Source: Acetobacteraceae bacterium (GTDB taxonomy: Bacteria > Pseudomonadota > Alphaproteobacteria > Acetobacterales > Acetobacteraceae). Taken from it: 64,000 nt of DNA. Both the position numbers and the translations under genes were made by a program. This document shows positions 2,163-24,207 of the stretch, in pieces. Numbering within the stretch: the stretch's first letter is position 1; every line of letters begins with the position of its first letter. Location: contig SHWL01000001.1 in the NCBI GenBank assembly GCA_009693865.1, positions 1 to 64,000 on the forward strand. The letters are read 5' to 3'. The notes under the pieces are model-generated. The model made no database searches, had not been told where the DNA came from, and saw only the letters and a list, made by a program, of their open reading frames with translations.

Positions 2163-3479
2163 TTGATGACTCCAACGTCCCATCCCCCCGTTGGCCCAGG
2201 AATCAACCCCCCAGTGAACGAGCTCATCCAGACCACCCGCCTCCCCTCCGGCCTCACCGTCGTGACGGAACGCATGGACCGGGTCGAAACCGTCTCCTTC
2301 GGCGCCTATGTCGCCACCGGCTCCCGCAATGAGACCGAGGCGGAGAACGGCGTCTCGCACTTCCTCGAGCATATGGCCTTCAAAGGCACCGAAACGCGCT
2401 CCGCCGCCGCCATCGCGGAGGAGATCGAGAACGTCGGCGGCCACATCAACGCCTACACCGCCCGCGAACAGACCGCCTACTATGTCAAGGTCCTCAAGGA
2501 GGACACGGCGCTGGCCGCCGACATCATCGGCGACATCCTGACCCACTCGACGTTCGAACCGGAGGAGATGGAGCGCGAACGCGGCGTCATCCTGCAGGAA
2601 ATCGGCCAGGCCAACGACACCCCGGACGACATCATCTTCGACCATTTCCAGGAAGTCGCTTACCCCTCCCAATCCCTGGGCCGGCCCATTCTGGGGACCG
2701 AGGAAGGGATCCGGGAAATGCCCCGCGCGATCCTGACCGCATATATGAAGCGGCACTACGCGCCATCCAACGTGGTCGTCGCCGCGGCGGGGAACCTGGA
2801 ACATCAGCAGGTCCTCGACCTGGTCCAGCGCCATTTCGCCGACCTGCCAGCCCAGACGGCGCCGGGCATGGAGACCGGAACGTATCGGGGCGGCGAGTTC
2901 CGGGAAGCCCGCGACCTGGACCAGGTCCATATCGTTCTTGGCTTTCCCTCGATCGGTTTTTCCGACCCGGATTACTACCCGACGCTGCTGCTCTCTACCC
3001 TTCTGGGCGGCGGCATGTCGTCCCGGCTGTTCCAGGAAATCCGGGAAAAGCGCGGCCTGGTTTATTCGATCTACTCGTTCGCCCAGCCGTATATGGATGG
3101 CGGCCTGTTCGGCATCTACGCGGGCACAGGGGAAAGCGAGGCCGAAGAACTGATGCCCGTGACCCTGGAAGAATTACGCAAAGTGCAGACCTCCGTCACC
3201 GAGTCCGAACTGGCGCGCGCCAAGGCGCAGGTGAAGGCCAGCGTGCTGATGTCGCTGGAAAGCACCGGCAGCCGGTGCGAGCAGTTAGCCCGGCAGCTCC
3301 AGGTCTTCGGCCGGGTGCTGTCCACCGAGGAGACCGTCCGAAAAATCGTGGCGGTCACGCCCGAAGATATCCAGCGCGCCGCCGTCAGGCATTTCCGCGG
3401 GAAGCCAACCCTGGCCGCCATGGGTCCCGCCACGCGCGTACCCGGCCTGGCGCAGATCACGGAAACACTGGCCGCGTAA
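2163..3479 (+). CDS. M16 family zinc peptidase (processing-peptidase-like)
   Basis: HxxEH motif (HFLEHMAFKGT), GGHINAYTAREQTAYY, GGGMSSRLFQEIREKRGLVYSIYSF. Confidence 0.92.
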   Translation: MMTPTSHPPVGPGINPPVNELIQTTRLPSGLTVVTERMDRVETVSFGAYVATGSRNETEAENGVSHFLEHMAFKGTETRSAAAIAEEIENVGGHINAYTAREQTAYYVKVLKEDTALAADIIGDILTHSTFEPEEMERERGVILQEIGQANDTPDDIIFDHFQEVAYPSQSLGRPILGTEEGIREMPRAILTAYMKRHYAPSNVVVAAAGNLEHQQVLDLVQRHFADLPAQTAPGMETGTYRGGEFREARDLDQVHIVLGFPSIGFSDPDYYPTLLLSTLLGGGMSSRLFQEIREKRGLVYSIYSFAQPYMDGGLFGIYAGTGESEAEELMPVTLEELRKVQTSVTESELARAKAQVKASVLMSLESTGSRCEQLARQLQVFGRVLSTEETVRKIVAVTPEDIQRAAVRHFRGKPTLAAMGPATRVPGLAQITETLAA

Positions 3480-3633
3480 CGGCTTCGCAAGTCAGGCGGC
3501 GCCAGAATGCGGCGATGACGGAGCGGCCTGGCCGTTAGGTGGGGATGAGACCCGCGCGGCTGCCAGCAAATTCTGGAATCCGTCGGCCAACCTGTGCTTT
3601 ACCTCCGCCCCACCCGCGAAAAGGAATCTCCTG

Positions 3634-4944
3634 GTGCGTATCACGATGATCGGAGGTGGCTATGTCGGCCTCGTCTCCGGCGCCTGTTTCGCGGAATTCG
3701 GCACCGACGTGACCGTGGTGGAAACCGATGCGGGGAAGCTCACCGCCTTGCGGGACGGCCGCATGCCCATCTTCGAACCCGGGCTTGAAAAACTGGTGCG
3801 GGAAAATGTCGCCGCCGGCCGCCTGTCCTTCACCGGCGACCTGACCGAGGGCGTGCAGGATGCCGAGGCTGTGTTCATCGCCGTCGGCACTCCGGCCCGC
3901 CGGGGCGATGGCCACGCCGACCTCACATATGTCTATGCCGCCGTCGAACAGGTGGCGCGCGCGCTGACCACCTCCACCGTCATCGTCACAAAGTCCACGG
4001 TGCCCGTCGGCACGGGACGCCGGATCAAGGAAATCGTGGCCGCGGTCCGGCCCGATCTGGAGATTCACGTCGCCTCGAATCCCGAATTCCTGCGCGAAGG
4101 CAACGCCATCACCGATTTCATGCGCCCGGACCGCGTGGTCATCGGCTCGGAAACCGAGCGCGCGCGGGAGGTTCTGGGCCGCCTCTACCGCCCGCTCAAT
4201 CTGATCGAGACGCCGATCCTGCATACCGGAATAGAGACGGCTGAACTGACGAAATACGCCGGCAACGCGTTCTTGGCGATGAAGGTCACGTTCATCAATG
4301 AAATGGCCGATTTGTGTGAAAAGGTGGGCGCCGATGTTCACGACGTCGCGCGCGGGATCGGTCTCGATGGCCGGATCGGCCGGAAATTCCTCCACCCCGG
4401 GCCGGGCTATGGCGGATCGTGCTTCCCGAAGGACACTCTGGCGCTGGTGCGCACGGCGCAAGACCACGGGGCGCCGTCCCGGCTGGTCGAGGCAACGGTC
4501 CTCGTCAACGAAGCCCGCAAATCCAGCATGGCGATGCGTGTCATCAACGCCTGCGGCGGGTCCGTCCGCGGCAAGACCATCGGTGTACTGGGCCTGACCT
4601 TCAAGCCGGAGACCGACGACATGCGCGACTCGCCGTCGTTGCCGATCGTCTCCCGGCTGGCGGGCGACGGTGCCGCGATCCGCGCCTTCGACCCCGAGGG
4701 AATGGAACAGGCAAAACCCTTGCTGCCGGAGTCGGTCACGTATTGCCGTGATGCGATGGATGCAGCGACCGGGGCGGATGCGGTGATCCTGATCACGGAA
4801 TGGAACGAGTTCCGGGCGCTTTCCCCGACCCGGCTGCGCGATACCATGCGCGGCCGGGTGTTGGTCGACCTGCGCAACGCATGGGACCCCGTGGCGATGC
4901 GGCAGGCTGGGTTCGATTACCATGGAATTGGCCGGCCCGGTTGA
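3634..4944 (+). CDS. UDP-glucose 6-dehydrogenase
   Basis: MITMIGGGYVGLVSGACFAEFG, GPGYGGSCFPKDTLAL active-site Cys motif, GLTFKPETDDMRDSPS. Confidence 0.95.
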   Translation: MRITMIGGGYVGLVSGACFAEFGTDVTVVETDAGKLTALRDGRMPIFEPGLEKLVRENVAAGRLSFTGDLTEGVQDAEAVFIAVGTPARRGDGHADLTYVYAAVEQVARALTTSTVIVTKSTVPVGTGRRIKEIVAAVRPDLEIHVASNPEFLREGNAITDFMRPDRVVIGSETERAREVLGRLYRPLNLIETPILHTGIETAELTKYAGNAFLAMKVTFINEMADLCEKVGADVHDVARGIGLDGRIGRKFLHPGPGYGGSCFPKDTLALVRTAQDHGAPSRLVEATVLVNEARKSSMAMRVINACGGSVRGKTIGVLGLTFKPETDDMRDSPSLPIVSRLAGDGAAIRAFDPEGMEQAKPLLPESVTYCRDAMDAATGADAVILITEWNEFRALSPTRLRDTMRGRVLVDLRNAWDPVAMRQAGFDYHGIGRPG

Positions 4945-5118: not shown

Positions 5119-6105
5119 ATGAAGCTGACCGTCTGTGTCTGTACGCATAACCGGCCACGGTACGTGCGCGACTGCCTCGAGGGCTTACGCCGCCAGAGCG
5201 TACCGCAAGAGTGTTTCGCCCTCGTGATCGTCGACAGCGGCTCGTCCGAGCCAGCGCGCTCCGATCTCGTTGTCCTTGCGCGGGATTATCCAGGCGCCCG
5301 GCTGCTCCGGGTCGACGAACCCGGGGTCAGCACCGCCCGCAACGCCGGAGCCGCCGCGGCAGCGACAGGCTTCATCGCCTACATCGACGATGACGCCATT
5401 CCCGCGGCGAACTGGATCGAGGCAATTCTTGCCGCGCTCAGCGGTGACACTCGACCCCCGGTCGTGCTCGGAGGCCGCATCCTGCCAAAATGGGAGGCGC
5501 CGCTGCCCGCGTGGTGGCCGCCCGGTTTACGCGGCGTTCTGTCGATCATCGAGCACGAGGGCGTAGGTGAGTATCGCTCGGCGGCACTACCGGCTGGATT
5601 GGAACCCTACGCGGCCAACATGGTTGTGCACGCGCCCACCTTATTATGCGTAGGCGGTTTCGGATGCGGAATAGGCAGGATCGGGACCGCCTTGTTATCG
5701 GATGAAGAGGTCCAACTCGCCTGGCGGTTGCAGGACATGGGGCTGTCCGCGCGATACGACTCACGAATCGTGGTGTTCCATCAGATTCAGGCTCGCCGCC
5801 TGAACCCGGACTGGCTGTTATCGCGTTTATATTGGCAGGGAGCCTCGACGGTGCTGACCCGGCGGCTGTTACACTATCGCGGCGCGCTCTGGCGCGAGTT
5901 CCCACGCCGCCTCCTTGTGGCGATCTTGTATGCCCCTGTCGCGCTCTGGCCCCGTGATTCCACCCGATTTCTGGCGGTTCGCTGGCGTTGGGCGTACGCC
6001 GCCGGCTTCCTTCGGGCCGCGCTTGGCTGGCGCGCGGCAAATGCCGCCCGCCGCATTGCCGGCACCGCGCACCACGCGGCCTCCCGCGCCCCAGCCATTT
6101 CATGA
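5119..6105 (+). CDS. Glycosyltransferase family 2
   Basis: MKLTVCVCTHNRPRYVRDCLEGL, IDDDAIPAANWIEA; start chosen inside longer ORF 4984-6105. Confidence 0.88.
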   Translation: MKLTVCVCTHNRPRYVRDCLEGLRRQSVPQECFALVIVDSGSSEPARSDLVVLARDYPGARLLRVDEPGVSTARNAGAAAAATGFIAYIDDDAIPAANWIEAILAALSGDTRPPVVLGGRILPKWEAPLPAWWPPGLRGVLSIIEHEGVGEYRSAALPAGLEPYAANMVVHAPTLLCVGGFGCGIGRIGTALLSDEEVQLAWRLQDMGLSARYDSRIVVFHQIQARRLNPDWLLSRLYWQGASTVLTRRLLHYRGALWREFPRRLLVAILYAPVALWPRDSTRFLAVRWRWAYAAGFLRAALGWRAANAARRIAGTAHHAASRAPAIS

Positions 6106-7082
6106 TCCTCTATAACTGGCGGGGCCCGGCCCAGAATTTCGGCGACGAACTGAACACCCTGCTGTGGCCAAGGCTGCTGCCGGATTTCTTCGACCACGAC
6201 GGGGCGGCACGGTTCCTTGGCATCGGTTCCATTCTCGACGGACGCCACGATCCAACAGCGCTGAAACTGGTCGCAGGCTCGGGGTATGGTGGTTATGAGG
6301 CGCCGATCGTGCTCGATGAGACATGGGTCGTGCACTGGGTCCGGGGACGCCGTACCGCGCGGATGCTCGGCCTGCCGCTTTGCCTTGGCATTGGTGACCC
6401 TGCCTCTCTGATCCCGCTCGCGGGCCTCGCGCCCCCACGCGAAAATCAGGATATCGGCTTCATGCCGCATTTCGAAAGCGCGATCCGGGGCGCCTGGCGG
6501 GAAGCAGCGGCGCTGGCGGGCATAACTCTGATCGACCCGCGCGACGATCCGCGGTCGGTCATCGCCGCGATTTCCCGGTGCCGTGTGATACTCAGCGAAG
6601 CGCTGCATGGTGTCATCGTCGCCGACGCCTTGCGAGTTCCCTGGATCGCGGTCGAACCGCTCGCCCCCATCCACCGCCCAAAATGGCTCGACTGGGCCGA
6701 GACCGTCGATCTGACGATCGCGTTCCATCGGCTCCCGCCCTCGACGTTACTGGAGCGGGCCCATCTCTCGGGCATGGCGCGCTTTCACGCGGGAAGATGC
6801 CTGTTGAACCGGCAGGCCGCGCGGCTCCGCGCCATCGCGCGAAATCAATATATTGACCGGGCGGCCCAGGCACTGCGGAAGGTCGCGCGCGCGGCGCCCC
6901 AATTGTCCGGCGCAGGGGCGCTGGATCGCGGTCAGAGCAGGATGGTGGACGCGATCGCTGCCCTGCGGCGCGACCCGATGCGCCGACCCCACCAGACAGA
7001 GCAGGTCCAGATCGACCCGCCACCCTTGCACCGCCGCGCGGTTTCCGCCTACCACGAGATGCCCGGCCGGCTCATCGCCTGA
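6102..7082 (+). CDS. Polysaccharide pyruvyltransferase family-like protein
   Basis: MILYNWRGPAQNFGDELNTLLWPRLL and C-terminal SEALHGVIVADALRVPWIAVEPL; start overlaps previous stop. Confidence 0.8.
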   Translation: MILYNWRGPAQNFGDELNTLLWPRLLPDFFDHDGAARFLGIGSILDGRHDPTALKLVAGSGYGGYEAPIVLDETWVVHWVRGRRTARMLGLPLCLGIGDPASLIPLAGLAPPRENQDIGFMPHFESAIRGAWREAAALAGITLIDPRDDPRSVIAAISRCRVILSEALHGVIVADALRVPWIAVEPLAPIHRPKWLDWAETVDLTIAFHRLPPSTLLERAHLSGMARFHAGRCLLNRQAARLRAIARNQYIDRAAQALRKVARAAPQLSGAGALDRGQSRMVDAIAALRRDPMRRPHQTEQVQIDPPPLHRRAVSAYHEMPGRLIA

Positions 7083-7121
7083 TTCCGGTGCCGTTCCACC
7101 GCGTGGGAGCTTCTGTCGCTG

Positions 7122-8834
7122 ATGCCGTCCGTGCCCGACCTGTCACGGCTCATTCCGCTCAGCGCCCGCGTCGTACTGGATGTCGGTTGCGGCCGGGGGG
7201 ACGTCGGCGCCGCGTACCGCCGATTAAACCCCAATGCGCGCCTGCTGGCCATCGACAACGATCCGGAGATGGTGATCGAAGCCCGCCGTCATTACGACGA
7301 GTGCGTCCTGGCCGGCGCGGAAGCCGAAATCCTGCCTTTCGACGTCCCAAAGGGCGTCGATTGCATCGTCTATAGCGCGATCCTGGAGCATCTGGCCTCC
7401 CCCTTCGACGTCCTCCGGCGCCACGCCCGGTTGCTGGCCCCAAACGGAACCATGCTGATTTGCGTCTCCAATGTGGAACACTGGAGCCTCGCGCGGCGCT
7501 TGCTGATGGGCGACTTCCGGTATGAGGACGCCGGCCTGATGGACCGCCGGCACCTGCGCTGGTTCAGTCTTGAAACCATGGGGACGGGCCTGCTCGAAGC
7601 CGGGCTTGTGCCGATCGATGTGCAACCCAGAATTTTCGATGAACCCGGAGGCCAGGCGTTCGTCGAGGCGATCGCGCCCGCGTTGCGCAATCTGGGCATC
7701 GACCCCGCCAACTACGTTCGGAATGCGTTGCCGCTACAGCATGTCTGGCGCGCGAGGCGTGAACCGGTTCGCCGGCTGATCGTCGCGGGCGATATGTTGC
7801 ATCCGATCGGCGGAGTATCGCATTTGCGGGTCCTCCATCCGCTGGCGGCCATGGCGTCCGATCCCGAAGTCGTCACCAACCTGGCTCCGCCGGAGAACCC
7901 GCCTGAGTTCACCGATCCCTCGGAGGCCAAACCGGACGGCGCGGACGTTCCGCGGATTTTCATCCTGCACCGGCCCGCTCTGTTCGGGGCCGGGGGCCAG
8001 GCAGTCGTCGATCGTCTTATCGACCGGGGATGGCTGGTGGTGACCGAGTTCGACGACCACCCGGATTTCATGCGCGGGCTGGACACTCCGGACCTGGTGT
8101 CCTTCCGGGGGGTACACGCCGTGCAGACCACGACCCCGATTCTGGCGGAGGTGCTACGCCAACGAAACCCTGAACTGGCGCTGTTCCCCAATGCGATCGC
8201 GTCGCTGCCGGATATCCGCAATTTCACCGACCCCGGCGTCCTGACGGTGTTTTTCGGTGCTTTGAACCGCGAGCAGGATTGGCGTCCGGTCATGGGACCG
8301 ATCAACGCGATCGCCGCCCACATGGGTGGGCGGCTTCGGTTCCGGGTCGTGCACGACGAGGGGTTTTTTCAGGCCCTGGAAACCCGTCACAAAACGTTCA
8401 CTCCACTCTGCGACTACGACACATATCTGGATCTTCTCGGGACCTCGGAAATCTCGCTCATGCCGCTGGACGACACGCCCTTCAATCGCGCGAAGTCCGA
8501 TCTGAAATTCATCGAAGCCGGTGCGTGCCGGGTCGCCTCGCTCGCCAGCACCGTCGTGTACCGGCATAGCATCGCCGAGGGCGAGACCGGACTGCTGTTC
8601 GATGGGCCTGACGCGTTTCACCGGCAATTCCTGCGCCTGGCAGCGATCCCGGACCTCGCATTGGAACTCGGGAACAATGCTCGCCGCGTGGTGATTCGCG
8701 ACCGCATGCTGGCGGATCAGGTTGCGCCGAGAATAGCGTGGTACCGGGATTTGTGGCGGCGGCGGGACGCGCTGACGCAGGCGCTTCGCGCGCGGACCGC
8801 CGATTGGCCGCAATTCCGGGAGCGTCACGATTAA
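7122..8834 (+). CDS. Fusion protein: SAM methyltransferase domain + glycosyltransferase-like domain
   Basis: N-term VVLDVGCGRGDVGAAYRRL (motif I) and YSAILEHLASPFDVLRRHARLL; C-term about 300 aa GT-like with FNRAKSDLKFIEAGACRVASLAS. Confidence 0.75.
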   Translation: MPSVPDLSRLIPLSARVVLDVGCGRGDVGAAYRRLNPNARLLAIDNDPEMVIEARRHYDECVLAGAEAEILPFDVPKGVDCIVYSAILEHLASPFDVLRRHARLLAPNGTMLICVSNVEHWSLARRLLMGDFRYEDAGLMDRRHLRWFSLETMGTGLLEAGLVPIDVQPRIFDEPGGQAFVEAIAPALRNLGIDPANYVRNALPLQHVWRARREPVRRLIVAGDMLHPIGGVSHLRVLHPLAAMASDPEVVTNLAPPENPPEFTDPSEAKPDGADVPRIFILHRPALFGAGGQAVVDRLIDRGWLVVTEFDDHPDFMRGLDTPDLVSFRGVHAVQTTTPILAEVLRQRNPELALFPNAIASLPDIRNFTDPGVLTVFFGALNREQDWRPVMGPINAIAAHMGGRLRFRVVHDEGFFQALETRHKTFTPLCDYDTYLDLLGTSEISLMPLDDTPFNRAKSDLKFIEAGACRVASLASTVVYRHSIAEGETGLLFDGPDAFHRQFLRLAAIPDLALELGNNARRVVIRDRMLADQVAPRIAWYRDLWRRRDALTQALRARTADWPQFRERHD

Positions 8835-17224: not shown

Positions 17225-18357
17225 CAAGCAGGATCCTTTTCCGAAACGACCGGCAAATGCAGGCGAAATTCTGTACGCCCAGGCCGGGAGTCGACCTCGA
17301 TCAGCCCCCCATGGTCGCCAACGATCTTGGCGACCAGCGACAGGCCCAATCCGCTGCCCGATGCCTTGGAGGTCACGAAGGGTTCGAACAAATGCGGTCT
17401 GATGTCCTCGGGGATGCCCGGCCCATTGTCCCGGACCCCGACATAAAGCGGCAGATCGACCCGCTCTGACGTGCCGGGCACGGCGATCCGCATGCCGTGT
17501 TGAAACCCGGTGGTGAGCACGATTTCTGGATGCGCGACACCGGCCGTGAGAATCGCTTCGGCGGCGTTCTTCACGAGGTTCAGGATGACCTGCACCAACT
17601 GGTCCCGGTTGCCCCATACCGGCGGCAGCGAAGGATCGTAATTCTCCTGAAACCGCACGGTTTCCGCGAAGCCCGATTGCGCCAGTCGCCGCACGTGCTC
17701 CAACACGCGATGGACATTCACGGCGGTGCGCGCAATCGGCTTTTCCGAGAACGCCTCCATCCGGTCGACCAGCGCGCGAATGCGGTCGGCTTCGTCGCGG
17801 ATCAGCACCGTAAGCTCGCGGTCCGCCTCATCGACGCTCGCCTCCAGCAACTGGGCCGCGCCGCGAATGCCGGACAGTGGATTCTTCACCTCATGCGCCA
17901 GGATCGCCGCCATGCCACTGACACTGCGTGCCGCGCCCCGGAACGCGAGTTGGCGATCCAGCGAGCGTGCAGCCGAAGCATCCTGCAAAACCAGAACGAC
18001 CGCGCCCGGTTCCTCCGCCATGGCTGAGCCCAGTACCGTGATGCCCGTTTTGACGAGGCGTGGGCTTTCCAGCGACAGATCGTGGTTGGACACCGTGCCT
18101 TCGGTCTGGCGCACCTGTTCAATCAGCAAATACAGCGGACTGTCGGCAGGAACCAGGTCGTTCAACCGCATTTGCGCGAGGCCGGAGGCGGAGATGCCGA
18201 GAAATTGCTCGGCGGCGTGATTGACCTGGCGAAACCGGTTGTCCGCGTCCAGCACGACGACCGGAACCGGCAGCGCGCTGAGGATCGCCGCGCTATCGAT
18301 TGCGCGCGGGCCTCGGCCAGGGAGCAAGCCAACCGCGCGGGAGAGGACGGAACTCAT
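17224..18357 (-). CDS. ntrB: Nitrogen regulation sensor kinase NtrB
   Basis: PAS domain, [41 protein letters not shown]; overlaps ntrC start. Confidence 0.95.
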
Positions 18358-19439
18358 GCCGCTTCCAGAACCTCTTCATCCAAATGGAGGCCTCCTTGTC
18401 CCACCGCGCGGGTCACGCCGCGCGCAATCAGCGGGTCATAGAAGGCATCCAAGGCCGCGATGACCGGCTCGGCGTCCGGCAGCCTGTTCATCAGGGCGCG
18501 GAATTCGGCCGAGCCCGGGAGGCCCTTCGAGTACCAGGACAAATGCTTGCGCGCGAGCCGCACGCCGGCCGAGCGGCCAAACTGGTCCAGCAAGGCGCGA
18601 TAGTGGTTCAGAACGATCGCTTTTTGCCGCGCCAGTCCGGGGTCGGGCAACCTTACCCCAGTTGCCAGAAAATGCGCCACCTGCGCCAGGAACCAGGGAC
18701 GTCCGTAACAACCGCGGCCGATCATGACGCCGTCGGCGCCCGACAGGCGCAACGCGGTGGCGGCGTCGTCCTCGGTCAGGATATCGCCGTTGACGATCAC
18801 CGGCAGGGTGACGGCCTGTTTGACGCGGGCGACAAAAGCCCAGTCGGCGGTGCCGTTATAAAGCTGCTGCCGCGTGCGCCCATGCACGGTCACCATCTTG
18901 ATCCCCGACTCCTGGGCGATTCGCGCCAGGTTGGGGGCGTTGAGGTTGTCGCGATCCCAGCCCATGCGCATTTTCAGCGTGACCGGGACTCGGACGGCGT
19001 TGACCGTGGCCTCCAAAATCGCGGCGGCTGCGCGTTCGTCGCGCATCAGGGCTGAGCCGGCCATCTGGCCAATTGCGACCTTCTTCACGGGACAGCCAAA
19101 ATTGATATCGATGAGGTCGGCGCCTTTGCCAGTGGCGATGCGCGCGGCCTCGGCCATCGCGGTCGGATCGCAGCCCGCCAGTTGCACCGCGGATATGCCA
19201 CCGTCACCATCGACCTGAGCCATGGTCAGGGTCTTTTGATTTTCGCGGATCATCGCCCAGGAGGCGATCATTTCGGAAACGACCATACCGGCGCCGAGGG
19301 ATTTGGCGGTGCGGCGGAACGGTAGATCGGTAACACCGGACATCGGCGCCAGAATGACCGGCGTGTCGATTCGGACGCCACCCCCCAGATCGATTGGTCT
19401 GAGGGCAGGAAGGTTGTTTTCTGACCGGTAGTTGCCCAT
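18354..19439 (-). CDS. dusB: tRNA-dihydrouridine synthase (DusB/NifR3)
   Basis: [61 protein letters not shown]. Confidence 0.95.
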
Positions 19440-19648
19440 GATTTGGGCAAATTAGCGCGTGAGCACGCGGCATGCAACGGGGCTGCGGGGGCGGTGTCAC
19501 GCCGCGTTTATCTTTTGCCGACATTGCGTGCCGGGTCAATCTCCACGCAAGCGGTATCCTGGCCGGTTTTCCACGACCAGTGTCTTCAACAAGACCCATT
19601 GCAACGCGAGATCGTCGGGGGACAACAGTATGGGGACGTCCATGGAGC

Positions 19649-19690
19649 GGTTCCTTTTCCATTAAAACCGCAATCCAATTAGAAGGAACC
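19649..19690. promoter_or_regulatory. Inverted repeat GGTTCCTT...AAGGAACC upstream of STAND gene
   Basis: Perfect 8-bp arms at 19649-19656 and 19683-19690; ends 67 bp before the likely ATG. Confidence 0.35.
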
Positions 19691-19721
19691 CAGCCGCCGG
19701 TCGTCCCGATCCTTCGTGACA

Positions 19722-19741
19722 TTGGCGACCTTTGGCGACCT
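19722..19741. repeat. Perfect tandem 10-bp duplication (TTGGCGACCT)x2
   Basis: Read directly; lies 16 bp before ATG at 19758. Confidence 0.7.
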
Positions 19742-19757
19742 ATCGCGGAGTATTGTC

Positions 19758-22700
19758 ATGGCACCTCGATCGCGACCCGAATTGCTTAAGCACAAGCGGT
19801 TTCTCGCGCGCCTGATCGCCACGGCCTGGGAGAATGGACAGCGTGCCGAGCCCATGAAGCAGAACCAGGAAATCCGGCGGTGGACAGCCGATACCCTTGC
19901 TGATGCGGTCGGGTCGAATATCCGAGCGGTGCAAGGATGGCGTGACGAGAAGCGGCCTCAAAGGCCACTGGGGATCATGCCATTGTTACGCGTCTTCTAT
20001 GGTGATCGGCCGGAACACCTGGCAGCGCGGCAGACAATGCTGGAGGCATGGCGCCGCGCCGGTGGTATTCCGGATATCGACCTGACGCCGGTCGACAGCT
20101 CGGGTAACTGCCAGGCCGAGGCTGCGGCCTCGCTTCAAGGATTCACCGGTGGTCCCAAACCCATCCACCCGGACATCCATTCCATTGGCGATCTGTTCAC
20201 TGGCCGCGACGACTTTCTGGTTCGCCTCCGCGCCAGCCTCACGCGCCAGAGCGCTGGTGTCTCGGCCATCCGCGCCCTGAATGGAATGGCTGGCATCGGC
20301 AAGACCCAAGCGACGATGGAATACGCTCTGCGATACCAGGACGAGTACACCGCCCTGCTGTTCGTCCGAGCCTATGACGAGGCCACGCTAGACCGCGAAC
20401 TGGCCGCGCTGACCGGGGTGCTGCGGCTGCCGGAACGGGAAACAGCCGACGTCAATGTGCGCAAGGACGCGGTGCTGCGCTGGTTGAGGGCGCATTCCGG
20501 CTGGCTGCTGATCCTGGACAATGTCGATACGCCGGAGGCTTTGCGAGCGGCGACCGACCTCGGCCGGTCGTTGCGGTCCGGGCATGTGCTGCTGACCAGC
20601 AGGCTGGAGAGGGCGTTCGCCCAGGATATCGAGACGCTGGAACTCGGGTTGCTGACGCCGGGGGACGCAGTTTTGTATTTGATGAGGGCGACGGAGGGAC
20701 GGCGGCAGCCGGAGGGGGACGCGGAGGCTTGGGCGGGGGCGTTGGCGGAGGCGCTAAATCGCTTACCCTCTGTCCTGCATGGAGCCTCAGTCATCATCTC
20801 GCAAAGGCGCGTCACCTTTTCCCGCTACCTTGCGGAACTGACGCTTGAGGCGACAAGAGGCGTAGACCCGATTCTCGACGCTGCTATCTCGACCGGCATC
20901 GGCCACTTGTCGGAGCAGACCCGGACCATGATCGAGAGGCTCTCGTTTTTCACAAATGACCCGATACCGGAGTTCTTGTTTGAGGTGTATCCATTCGGAG
21001 CCACGCCACTGGAAGGCCAACTGGTGGCCTTCAACCTGCAACAGAACTCCTTTATCGGGCGACCCAGTCCGGTTCACAGCACTACCATCGTTGATCCTGC
21101 GGTCCGCGATCTGGCCTACGCACGTCTCGCTGCAGATCCCGAAAGGCACTTCACTCGCCTGAACGAGGTCTTGATCTGGCTCAACGCGGCGTTTGATGGC
21201 AACCCCCTGGATCCGGGAACCTGGCCCAACCTGGAACGATTAGCCCCTCATGCCGAGGCTGTGGCCGTGGCCGCCGATAAGGCGGGGATCGCTGAACCGA
21301 CAGGAAGGTTAATGAGCGCAGTCGGGACGCTATTCCAGTCCCGAAATCAACCACAAAGAGCAGAGCCGTTACTGGGCCGTGCGCTGGCTCTCCTCGAGGC
21401 TAGCCGTGGCCGACAACACCCGAGCGTAGCTACAGGACTTATCCAGCTTGCGCAGGTCGTCCAGAGCAACCGAGGCCCGGAAGAGGCAGTGCCGTTAATC
21501 CGCCGTGCGCTCGCGATCAACGAGGCAAGTTTCGGCCCCAACCATATGAACGTAGCGATTGTTCTGAACAATCTCGTTGAGTTGCTTCATGAAACTAGCC
21601 GCATGGATGAGGCGGAACGGCTGGCGCGGCGGCTCCTAGTGATCTGCCTCATACCCCAAGGAGTTGAGTCAGGCCCGCATCCGCTCCACGATACGGCAAT
21701 CCAAAACTACCGACTCGTGCTTGCAAGGTTGGGCCGGACCAATGCTGAGATAAGTACGGAAATCTCCCGCGCCAAACTCGAAGCCAGTCTACTTAATCCG
21801 CCCATGGACGCAGCCTACAACCAATCACTGCCATCAGATCCCATCCCGGTCCAAGTGGCAGGTCCACACTTCGCTGTAAGTGTCACTTCCAGGATTGCGC
21901 AGGCGCCACCCTCATCGATCGATGCCGATGGCAATGATACCCGTCGCATTCGGCAATTGCTCCCGCTGGTCCGAGACGCCGTGAACGACCTCGCAGCAGG
22001 TCTTAAACCCAACGATAACGCGTATCCCGAACTCGCTCGTGATGTCACGTATTACCGGGGCGCGCTTTCTAACGCCGAGCCAGAGATCGCGTGGGGTCTA
22101 GTTTGGGGTCTCGGTGTGCGCCTTGAGGAAGCCGCCGCCGCCGCTGAGCGCAAGATTGGCGACCAACTGGCACCACCACTAGAGGATTCAACTCTGGCAG
22201 CTTTGCAATCGCTGCGAAGCCTTCACGCTCCCCTTATCCTGGCCACAACCGCGGGTCGGGAGTTGCAAGAACAAAGTGATCGCCTTCGCATGACGCGTGA
22301 GGAGCAAGCGGCGTTACGTGAAGACGCGGTAGCTCTGTCAATCACGCTTCAACAGGACCAGGAAATCATCGAGTCGGAAGCCGCCGCCATCATCGTTCAG
22401 GCCGCTGCTGCTATCGGCGAGGGTCGCCACCCGGAGAGAGGTACCATCTTTGGTATCGCAACGATCAAACATACCTCAATCGTGCTAATCAGTGCAGCGA
22501 TAATCGCGGCCCCCGCCAGTCTAATTGGCGGTGTATTTGGTGTCGGCCTCACAATGGCCGCTTGGGAAGCAATCAAAAAGTCGCCGATTTTTGCGGCGGC
22601 GACCGCGGGTCTTGGTGAGGATTTCAATAAGGTGTTGGAGGTCGGCGGGGCTGCGGCGCAAAATCGTTTGGCTAAGCTTGCCCCCTTCAGAAGATTTGTT

Positions 22701-22817
22701 CGGGCTAATGAACAACAATTGCGCCGAATCGCAATGAATACGCGACAGTTACAATGGATGCTCCCATATATAGACTTTATCGTGAAAACAGACGGCTTTC
22801 AGAATGAAACTGAATAG
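19758..22817 (+). CDS. STAND/NB-ARC-like NTPase with HTH-like N-terminus, TPR region and C-terminal membrane-associated domain
   Basis: Walker A NGMAGIGKTQATMEYALRY, Walker B GWLLILDNVD, RNBS-B-like HVLLTSR, TPRs (RAEPLLGRALALLEASRGRQHPSVATGL, EEAVPLIRRALAINEASFGPNHMNVAIVLNNL), hydrophobic IVLISAAIIAAPASLIGGVFGVGLTMAAW near C-terminus. Confidence 0.8.
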   Translation: MAPRSRPELLKHKRFLARLIATAWENGQRAEPMKQNQEIRRWTADTLADAVGSNIRAVQGWRDEKRPQRPLGIMPLLRVFYGDRPEHLAARQTMLEAWRRAGGIPDIDLTPVDSSGNCQAEAAASLQGFTGGPKPIHPDIHSIGDLFTGRDDFLVRLRASLTRQSAGVSAIRALNGMAGIGKTQATMEYALRYQDEYTALLFVRAYDEATLDRELAALTGVLRLPERETADVNVRKDAVLRWLRAHSGWLLILDNVDTPEALRAATDLGRSLRSGHVLLTSRLERAFAQDIETLELGLLTPGDAVLYLMRATEGRRQPEGDAEAWAGALAEALNRLPSVLHGASVIISQRRVTFSRYLAELTLEATRGVDPILDAAISTGIGHLSEQTRTMIERLSFFTNDPIPEFLFEVYPFGATPLEGQLVAFNLQQNSFIGRPSPVHSTTIVDPAVRDLAYARLAADPERHFTRLNEVLIWLNAAFDGNPLDPGTWPNLERLAPHAEAVAVAADKAGIAEPTGRLMSAVGTLFQSRNQPQRAEPLLGRALALLEASRGRQHPSVATGLIQLAQVVQSNRGPEEAVPLIRRALAINEASFGPNHMNVAIVLNNLVELLHETSRMDEAERLARRLLVICLIPQGVESGPHPLHDTAIQNYRLVLARLGRTNAEISTEISRAKLEASLLNPPMDAAYNQSLPSDPIPVQVAGPHFAVSVTSRIAQAPPSSIDADGNDTRRIRQLLPLVRDAVNDLAAGLKPNDNAYPELARDVTYYRGALSNAEPEIAWGLVWGLGVRLEEAAAAAERKIGDQLAPPLEDSTLAALQSLRSLHAPLILATTAGRELQEQSDRLRMTREEQAALREDAVALSITLQQDQEIIESEAAAIIVQAAAAIGEGRHPERGTIFGIATIKHTSIVLISAAIIAAPASLIGGVFGVGLTMAAWEAIKKSPIFAAATAGLGEDFNKVLEVGGAAAQNRLAKLAPFRRFVRANEQQLRRIAMNTRQLQWMLPYIDFIVKTDGFQNETE

Positions 22818-22998: not shown

Positions 22999-24207
22999 AT
23001 GAAATCCAGTCAGGATCACATCCTCACCAGCCATGTCGGCAGCCTGCCGCGCCCGGACAACCTGATCGCGGCGCACCGAGCCCATGAAACCGGCCAACCG
23101 ATCGACGACCAGGCGTTCCAACTCACGCTCCGCCAAGCGGTCGACGAGGTCGTGCGCCATCAACACGATCTCGGCATCGACATCCCCGGCGACGGGGAGT
23201 TCGGCAAACCGATGGCTTCGCAAGTGCAGTACGGTTCCTGGTGGCGCTATTCATGGCAACGCCTCGGCGGCCTCGCGTTCGACAAACCCGCCACGTTTGA
23301 CTCCACACCGCGACAGTCCCGACCCGGAAATGTCGTGCTGACGAGCTTTGGCGACCGGCGGGATCGAAGCCAGTTCGCCGCCGCCTACGCCGATCCCGAC
23401 TCCGGCATCACCACCGGCCCTCGCCCGCCCGGGCCAGTCTGCGTCGAGCCGATCGTCTACACCGGCCACGACGCGATCCAGGCTGACATCGCCAGGTTCA
23501 AACAGGCGATGCAGGCGACCGGCCTCGAGGAAGGTTTCATGAGCGCGGTCGCCCTGGGCAGCGCCTCACGCATCGCCAACGAATACCACAAAACCGAGGA
23601 GGAACTGCTGTTCGCCTGCGCCGACGCGATGCGCGAGGCATACAAAGCGATCGTCGACGCGGGCTTCGTCCTGTAGCTTGACGACCCGGCGCTCGCCGAG
23701 AACTGGGACATGATCAAACCCGAGCCCACCCTGGACGATTATAAGAAGTTCTCCATGCTCCGCGTCGAGGCGTTGAACCACGCGATCCGCGACCTGCCGG
23801 CGGACCGCGTCCGGTTTCATCTGTGCTGGGGCAGTTGGCACGGTCCGCACACGACCGACATCCCCATGCGCGACATCGTCGAGGTGATGCTGGCGATCAA
23901 CGCGCATGCCTATTCGTTTGAGGTCGGCAACGTCCGCCACGAGCACGAGTGGAAAGTCTGGCAAGACGTGAAACTGCCAGACGGCAAGCTGATCCTTCCA
24001 GGCGTCGTCAGTCATGCCACCAACGTGGTCGAGCATCCCGAGCGTCGCCGAACGCATCCTTCGTTTCGCCGGCGTCGTCGGGCGGGAACGCGTCATTGCC
24101 TCCACCGACTGCGGTCTCGGCGGCCGCATTCATCCGCAAATCGCCTGGGCCAAGCTCGAAGCCCTCGCCCAGGGGGGGCGCTGGCGAGCCGGCAACTCTG
24201 GCGTTGA
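22999..24207 (+). pseudogene. Cobalamin-independent methionine synthase (MetE C-terminal)-like protein, disrupted
   Basis: SHVGSLPRP start; in-frame TAG in GFVL*LDDPALAENWDM where homologs have GFVLQ; frame change after NVVEHPE (continues as VAERILRFAGVVGRERVIASTDCGLGGRIHPQIAWAKLEAL in another frame) and return to original frame at ALASRQLWR*. Confidence 0.85.

Follow-up and report, generated by a model that had tools for sequence, protein, structure and literature searches.

What kind of protein is encoded at 19758..22817 (+), and does it serve the immunity of the bacterium that carries it? The window, meaning the whole stretch of 64,000 nucleotides that was analyzed, comes from a draft genome (81% complete, 4.48 Mb, 209 contigs) whose gene order suggests an alphaproteobacterium. 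The open reading frame begins with ATG and runs for 1019 codons with no internal stop; starting instead from a GTG 42 bases upstream would lengthen the product to 1033 aa. The first-pass annotation described a protein of about 1019 aa with an HTH-like N-terminus, the motifs GMAGIGKT, LLILDNVD, LLTSR, and LNRLPSVLHGA, and a C-terminal hydrophobic stretch, and all of these lie where it placed them. The order of parts is HTH-like domain, NB-ARC-type STAND NTPase, TPRs, and C-terminal domain (C-domain). We favor, at a probability of about 50%, a single-protein NLR-like conflict sensor, probably antiphage, with a C-terminal effector.

The gene is bordered on one side by dusB (18354-19439, -) and on the other by a cobalamin-independent methionine-synthase-like gene with a broken frame (22999 on), a gene for a flavodoxin-fold reductase, and ispDF. 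Co-occurrence with a defense island, raised in the first-pass annotation, was not borne out: none is recognizable around 19758-22817, where the surroundings are ntr, dusB, ispDF, and lipid genes. None of 29 congeners has a STAND gene adjoining dusB, and no ortholog of the full protein was found among the relatives examined. In G032, dusB and ispDF are spaced by 138 nt, an arrangement that suggests a recent insertion of the gene between them; other congeners differ there too. Separately, the methionine-synthase-II-like gene (22999-24207, +) shows at least one apparent frameshift in this draft assembly.

The STAND-TPR core

Homology and motifs place the STAND (AP-ATPase/NB-ARC-type) NTPase region at residues 133-520 (20154..21317, +), with the P-loop (Walker A) GMAGIGKT at residues 176-183 (20283-20306, +), Walker B LLILDNVD at residues 250-257 (20505-20528, +), and LLTSR at residues 278-282 (20589-20603, +). 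The TPR region follows at residues 521-690 (21318..21827, +) and is made up of about three kinesin-light-chain-type units. Domain searches returned TPR_12 at E=6.8e-17 and NB-ARC at E=0.0079, under the NB-ARC cut-off, and the best PDB matches of the repeats were kinesin light chains, as had been guessed. Three paralogs of this genome (G000:C9, C103, and C189; L038, L039, and L040) share 43-54% identity with residues ~133-690, over ~500-590 aa, and many proteins of the genus likewise match this part. Because of this homology, we consider the STAND-TPR part real, and the sensor assignment made earlier stands.

N-terminal to the core, relatives carry DUF4062/TIR-like domains, an HTH, or little else; C9 and C189 are HTH-STAND-TPR proteins without the C-domain. 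Complete relatives end after the TPRs, and the paralog stop codons fall about where the TPR module of the present protein ends. Several STAND-TPR relatives are cut by contig ends, and on the evidence of the complete frames the C-terminal extension occurs, among the relatives examined, only in the present protein. It also has fewer TPR units than the paralogs, which carry many near-identical 42-aa units. The C103 paralog frame is split in a frameshift-like manner.

Alignment with the paralogs and congeners showed Walker A, Walker B, and LLTSR to be intact. Three features that are conserved in those relatives whose sequence extends far enough are lost, namely the GLPL region, TW motif, and MHD-like IHRxVRD, and a gap of ~10 residues precedes them. 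The diverged GLPL region is LNRLPSVLHGA (residues 333-343; 20754-20786, +), and the MHD-like site reads STTIVDPAVRD (21078..21110, +). DUF7779, present in three paralogs, was not detected in the protein by domain search. Every relative that covers the GLPL and MHD-like sites retains the motifs that are missing here, a difference out of reach of the first-pass annotation; the STAND switch may therefore be regulated differently, or it may be relaxing or decaying.

A STAND-TPR conflict protein is a known kind. The NTPase and TPR core is held in common with FxsT, the TPR protein of the FxSxx-COOH system (NCBIfam NF040586), and with the TPR-ending AP-ATPases described by Kaur et al. 2020 (PMC7159879). 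The protein differs from FxsT in scoring under the curated cut-off (157.4 bits against 300 bits, with 340 bits for paralog C9), in having an HTH-like N-terminus in place of TIR/DUF4062, and in its extra C-terminal domain.

The C-terminal domain and its partners

The C-domain covers residues 691-1019 (21828..22814, +). A C-terminal part of ~330 aa with a hydrophobic stretch had been noted from the letters, and hydropathy bore this out: the stretch, a strong one, lies at residues 906-936 (22473-22565, +), and the peak of 2.29 (19-residue averaging, residues 908-926) agrees with one or two membrane segments. GC3 is 0.55 here, versus 0.78 in the flanking genes, fitting a separate origin. The C-domain had no matches in Pfam, NCBIfam, PHROG, or PADLOC, only chance-level matches in a PDB profile search, and no relatives in the phage and plasmid collections. 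An AF2 model built from a 2-row alignment was all-helical, at a pLDDT of 46 that gives it no confidence.

Four architectures contain the C-domain: HTH-STAND-TPR-C in the present protein, HTH-C, Mrr_N-C, and HEPN_RES_NTD1-C. The HTH-C protein (L043, G007) has 454 aa, with no STAND region between its two domains. L135 (G765) begins with Mrr_N (E=1.1e-14), a stretch that also matches the PADLOC model of a type IV restriction enzyme, and L055 (G044) has a HEPN_RES_NTD1-like N-terminus (E=1.6e-5, just under cut-off). Partial copies occur in G032 and G515, and a scan of the genome-contig collection gave one relative, the same as that of G032. Five C-domain sequences share the order GxGxxPER, hydrophobic region, and conserved W near the end; in the present protein, alignment places the motif GxGxxPER[GS] at 22416-22442 (+). 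The hydrophobic part is shorter or weaker in L135 and L055.

Mrr_N and HEPN_RES_NTD1 usually stand before nuclease or toxin domains, and the C-domain therefore occupies an effector slot. N-terminal modules of the Mrr_N (type IV restriction) and HEPN/RES types are fused to the C-domain as well, and what sets L135 and L055 apart from the usual proteins of these types is the unnamed domain that replaces the nuclease or toxin. The C-domain recurs behind three other N-terminal contexts (HTH alone, Mrr_N, and HEPN/RES), which makes a modular effector, probably acting on membranes, the likeliest reading. This exchange of partners lends independent support to the effector role proposed earlier.

The distribution of the C-domain is rare and patchy, in support of the first-pass reading: it was found in 3/33 genomes of the genus, 3/387 of the class (one of them weak), and 3/399 of the phylum. 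A weak class-level match in G274 sits amid unrelated genes and was discarded. A housekeeping regulator was ruled out by the patchy distribution together with the fusions to defense-type modules.

With Avs, bNACHT, and other antiviral STAND (NLR-like) proteins, the protein has in common a central STAND NTPase, a repeat sensor, and a putative cell-killing effector; in contrast to Avs and bNACHT, that effector appears C-terminal, behind the repeats. A search of the protein against PADLOC models returned nothing at E≤1. Should the C-domain prove to kill cells, at least four kinds of protein would be using an effector that has had no name until now, and the present one would show that the effector of an NLR-like protein can follow the sensor repeats. 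New to the libraries searched are the effector behind repeats, the unnamed partner-swapping C-domain, and an HTH cassette common with a DGR-linked operon; this novelty refers to those libraries and an open-access paper set, and prior description elsewhere is possible.

The HTH cassette and diversified lectin genes

The HTH-like domain spans residues 1-112 (19758..20093, +), with the HTH-like sequence at residues 42-67. The HTH-like N-terminus read from the sequence earlier was upheld, and evidence for an HTH fold is weak but consistent: HTH_3 (Pfam) matched 2 of 15 family members, at best with E=0.0021, the closest PDB sequences were HipB antitoxins (E=0.09), and a single-sequence AF2 model reached a pLDDT of 53. 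The family was found in 10/33 genomes of the genus and 3/387 of the class and is thus largely restricted to the genus of the window. It heads STAND-TPR, C-domain (TM), and beta-rich-domain proteins alike.

Together with ~190 bases upstream, the HTH forms a cassette (19565..20080, +) that matches a region of G000:C183 at 84.7% identity across 516 nt, with the similarity ending at about codon 110. The C183 HTH is joined to a beta-rich domain, and its gene precedes an FGE-sulfatase gene that is a target of a diversity-generating retroelement (DGR); the first-pass annotation had not seen that the HTH is part of a cassette that recurs in a DGR-linked lectin operon. Between the window copy and the C183 copy, dN/dS is ~0.18 over the HTH domain only, which points to purifying selection on that domain. 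The gene is thus a mosaic of an HTH/promoter cassette, a complete STAND-TPR unit, and the C-domain, assembled inside a conflict-system network. The common cassette is a concrete case of assembly by module exchange, and it connects this exchange to the DGR-diversified lectin proteins of the same genome. Read by eye, 19565-19757 holds a shortened 5' end of a divergent ORF, seemingly longer at C183.

At most loci looked at, HTH-beta genes precede pentapeptide and FGE-sulfatase (C-lectin fold) genes. Five FGE genes (C183, C190, C11, C56, and C121) have 3' ends related to an AAC-codon-rich copy, the template, which sits on C190 outside any FGE gene. Differences fall at template adenines in 12/15 cases for C56 and 13/17 for C121, and over the five variable regions this bias is far above chance (hypergeometric 1e-6 to 4e-10). 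Because adenine-biased changes are the hallmark of a DGR, we assign the system to this class. On C190 (L128), the template lies at 3405-3542 (-), and next to it lies a broken reverse transcriptase (about 3560-4600, -), which the PF00078 profile missed. The variable-region gene, with the FGE-sulfatase 3' end, is at 5172-6701 (-), and an HTH-beta-like gene at 6506-7522 (-). An HRDC-like ORF was seen by eye beside the template and broken reverse transcriptase. Two reverse transcriptases that PF00078 did find in the genome lack the DGR motif and were rejected as not DGR-type. Domain search and template comparison identified a TIR fused to an FGE-sulfatase with a DGR variable region at its 3' end (G000:C56, L130, 3249-4760, -). 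Three congeners (L160 in G001, L161 in G016, and L165 in G007) carry LPIGNLTSQ, the motif of DGR reverse transcriptases, in intact form and accompanied by template-like repeats.

DGR-diversified FGE lectins have been proposed as antigen sensors tied to STAND proteins via shared small domains (PMC8195603, PMC10907252, PMC7159879), with one EAD copy on the NTPase and others on effectors, and FGS is often found with DGRs (PMC8195603, PMC10907252). Like the DGR-diversified STAND/EAD-FGS systems (Kaur 2021, PMC8195603; Dore 2024, PMC10907252), the present one has a small N-terminal domain common to the NTPase and its partners, and DGR-target FGE/C-lectin proteins and a TIR-FGE are present in the genome. 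It differs from them in that the common domain is HTH-like and no named EAD, and in that the STAND protein has TPRs instead of FGE.

The HTH-like domain could accordingly be a homotypic adaptor linking the STAND, stand-alone HTH-TM, and HTH-beta proteins, such that the lectin senses and the STAND and TM proteins execute. The sharing of one N-terminal family by all three, the position of the HTH-beta genes upstream of FGE-sulfatase/pentapeptide genes, the adenine-biased variable regions, and the published EAD principle (PMC8195603, PMC10907252) speak for this possibility; we hold it only tentatively, as the HTH-like sequence looks DNA-binding given its HipB matches, an FGE partner is absent next to the gene, and the lectin proteins themselves are without HTH. 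The fuller version is doubtful: the domain would be a new adaptor tying NLR-like STANDs, with a new C-terminal membrane effector class, to DGR-diversified lectin sensors. One genus of alphaproteobacteria would then have an anticipatory immune network, and Mrr_N and HEPN/RES-type proteins would draw on the same effector module.

Candidate mode of action and remaining alternatives

In the favored reading, as a one-gene conflict sensor, the TPRs, by themselves or together with a partner, would bind an infection cue, the NTPase would switch, and the protein would oligomerize. The clustered C-terminal helical domains could then insert into the inner membrane or perforate it, causing growth to stop (abortive infection). 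The HTH might autoregulate the gene via the common upstream cassette, or it might link the protein, as an adaptor, to others of the network that bear an HTH. Antiphage activity and membrane insertion are predictions from sequence. The one-gene sensor is suggested by the STAND-TPR homology, the four C-domain architectures, the hydropathy peak, the patchiness, and the constraint on the HTH, as well as by the lack of STAND genes beside dusB in congeners and by the TIR/DUF4062-STAND-TPR and TIR-FGE genes that exist in the same genome or genus. Against it stand the GLPL/MHD-like loss, the lack of a defense island, a PADLOC match, or an ortholog, and the shorter hydrophobic part in L135 and L055.

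The rivals rank with the adaptor first, then a decayed chimera, then a transcriptional role. That the cassette, STAND-TPR unit, and C-domain were recently joined by recombination into a non-functional, decaying protein would agree with the motif losses, the few TPRs, the frame-broken methionine-synthase-like neighbor, and composition shifts along the gene; such a chimera is unlikely, given 1019 codons with no stop, the low dN/dS of the HTH, and the intact Walker A, Walker B, and LLTSR. Least probable is a transcription-coupled sensor, in which the HTH would bind DNA, STAND oligomerization would control transcription as in AfsR or MalT, and the C-domain would be only a membrane anchor: the HTH-like N-terminus, the C9 and C189 paralogs, and the weak score of C9 on the AfsR model fit it, but support for an HTH is weak (0.002 at best in Pfam) and the C-domain partners Mrr_N and HEPN_RES_NTD1 are defense-type modules, not regulators. 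As a minor observation, an HTH-family domain also stands before a different region of ~370 aa (L138, G125, 313-1839, -) in another family of the class.
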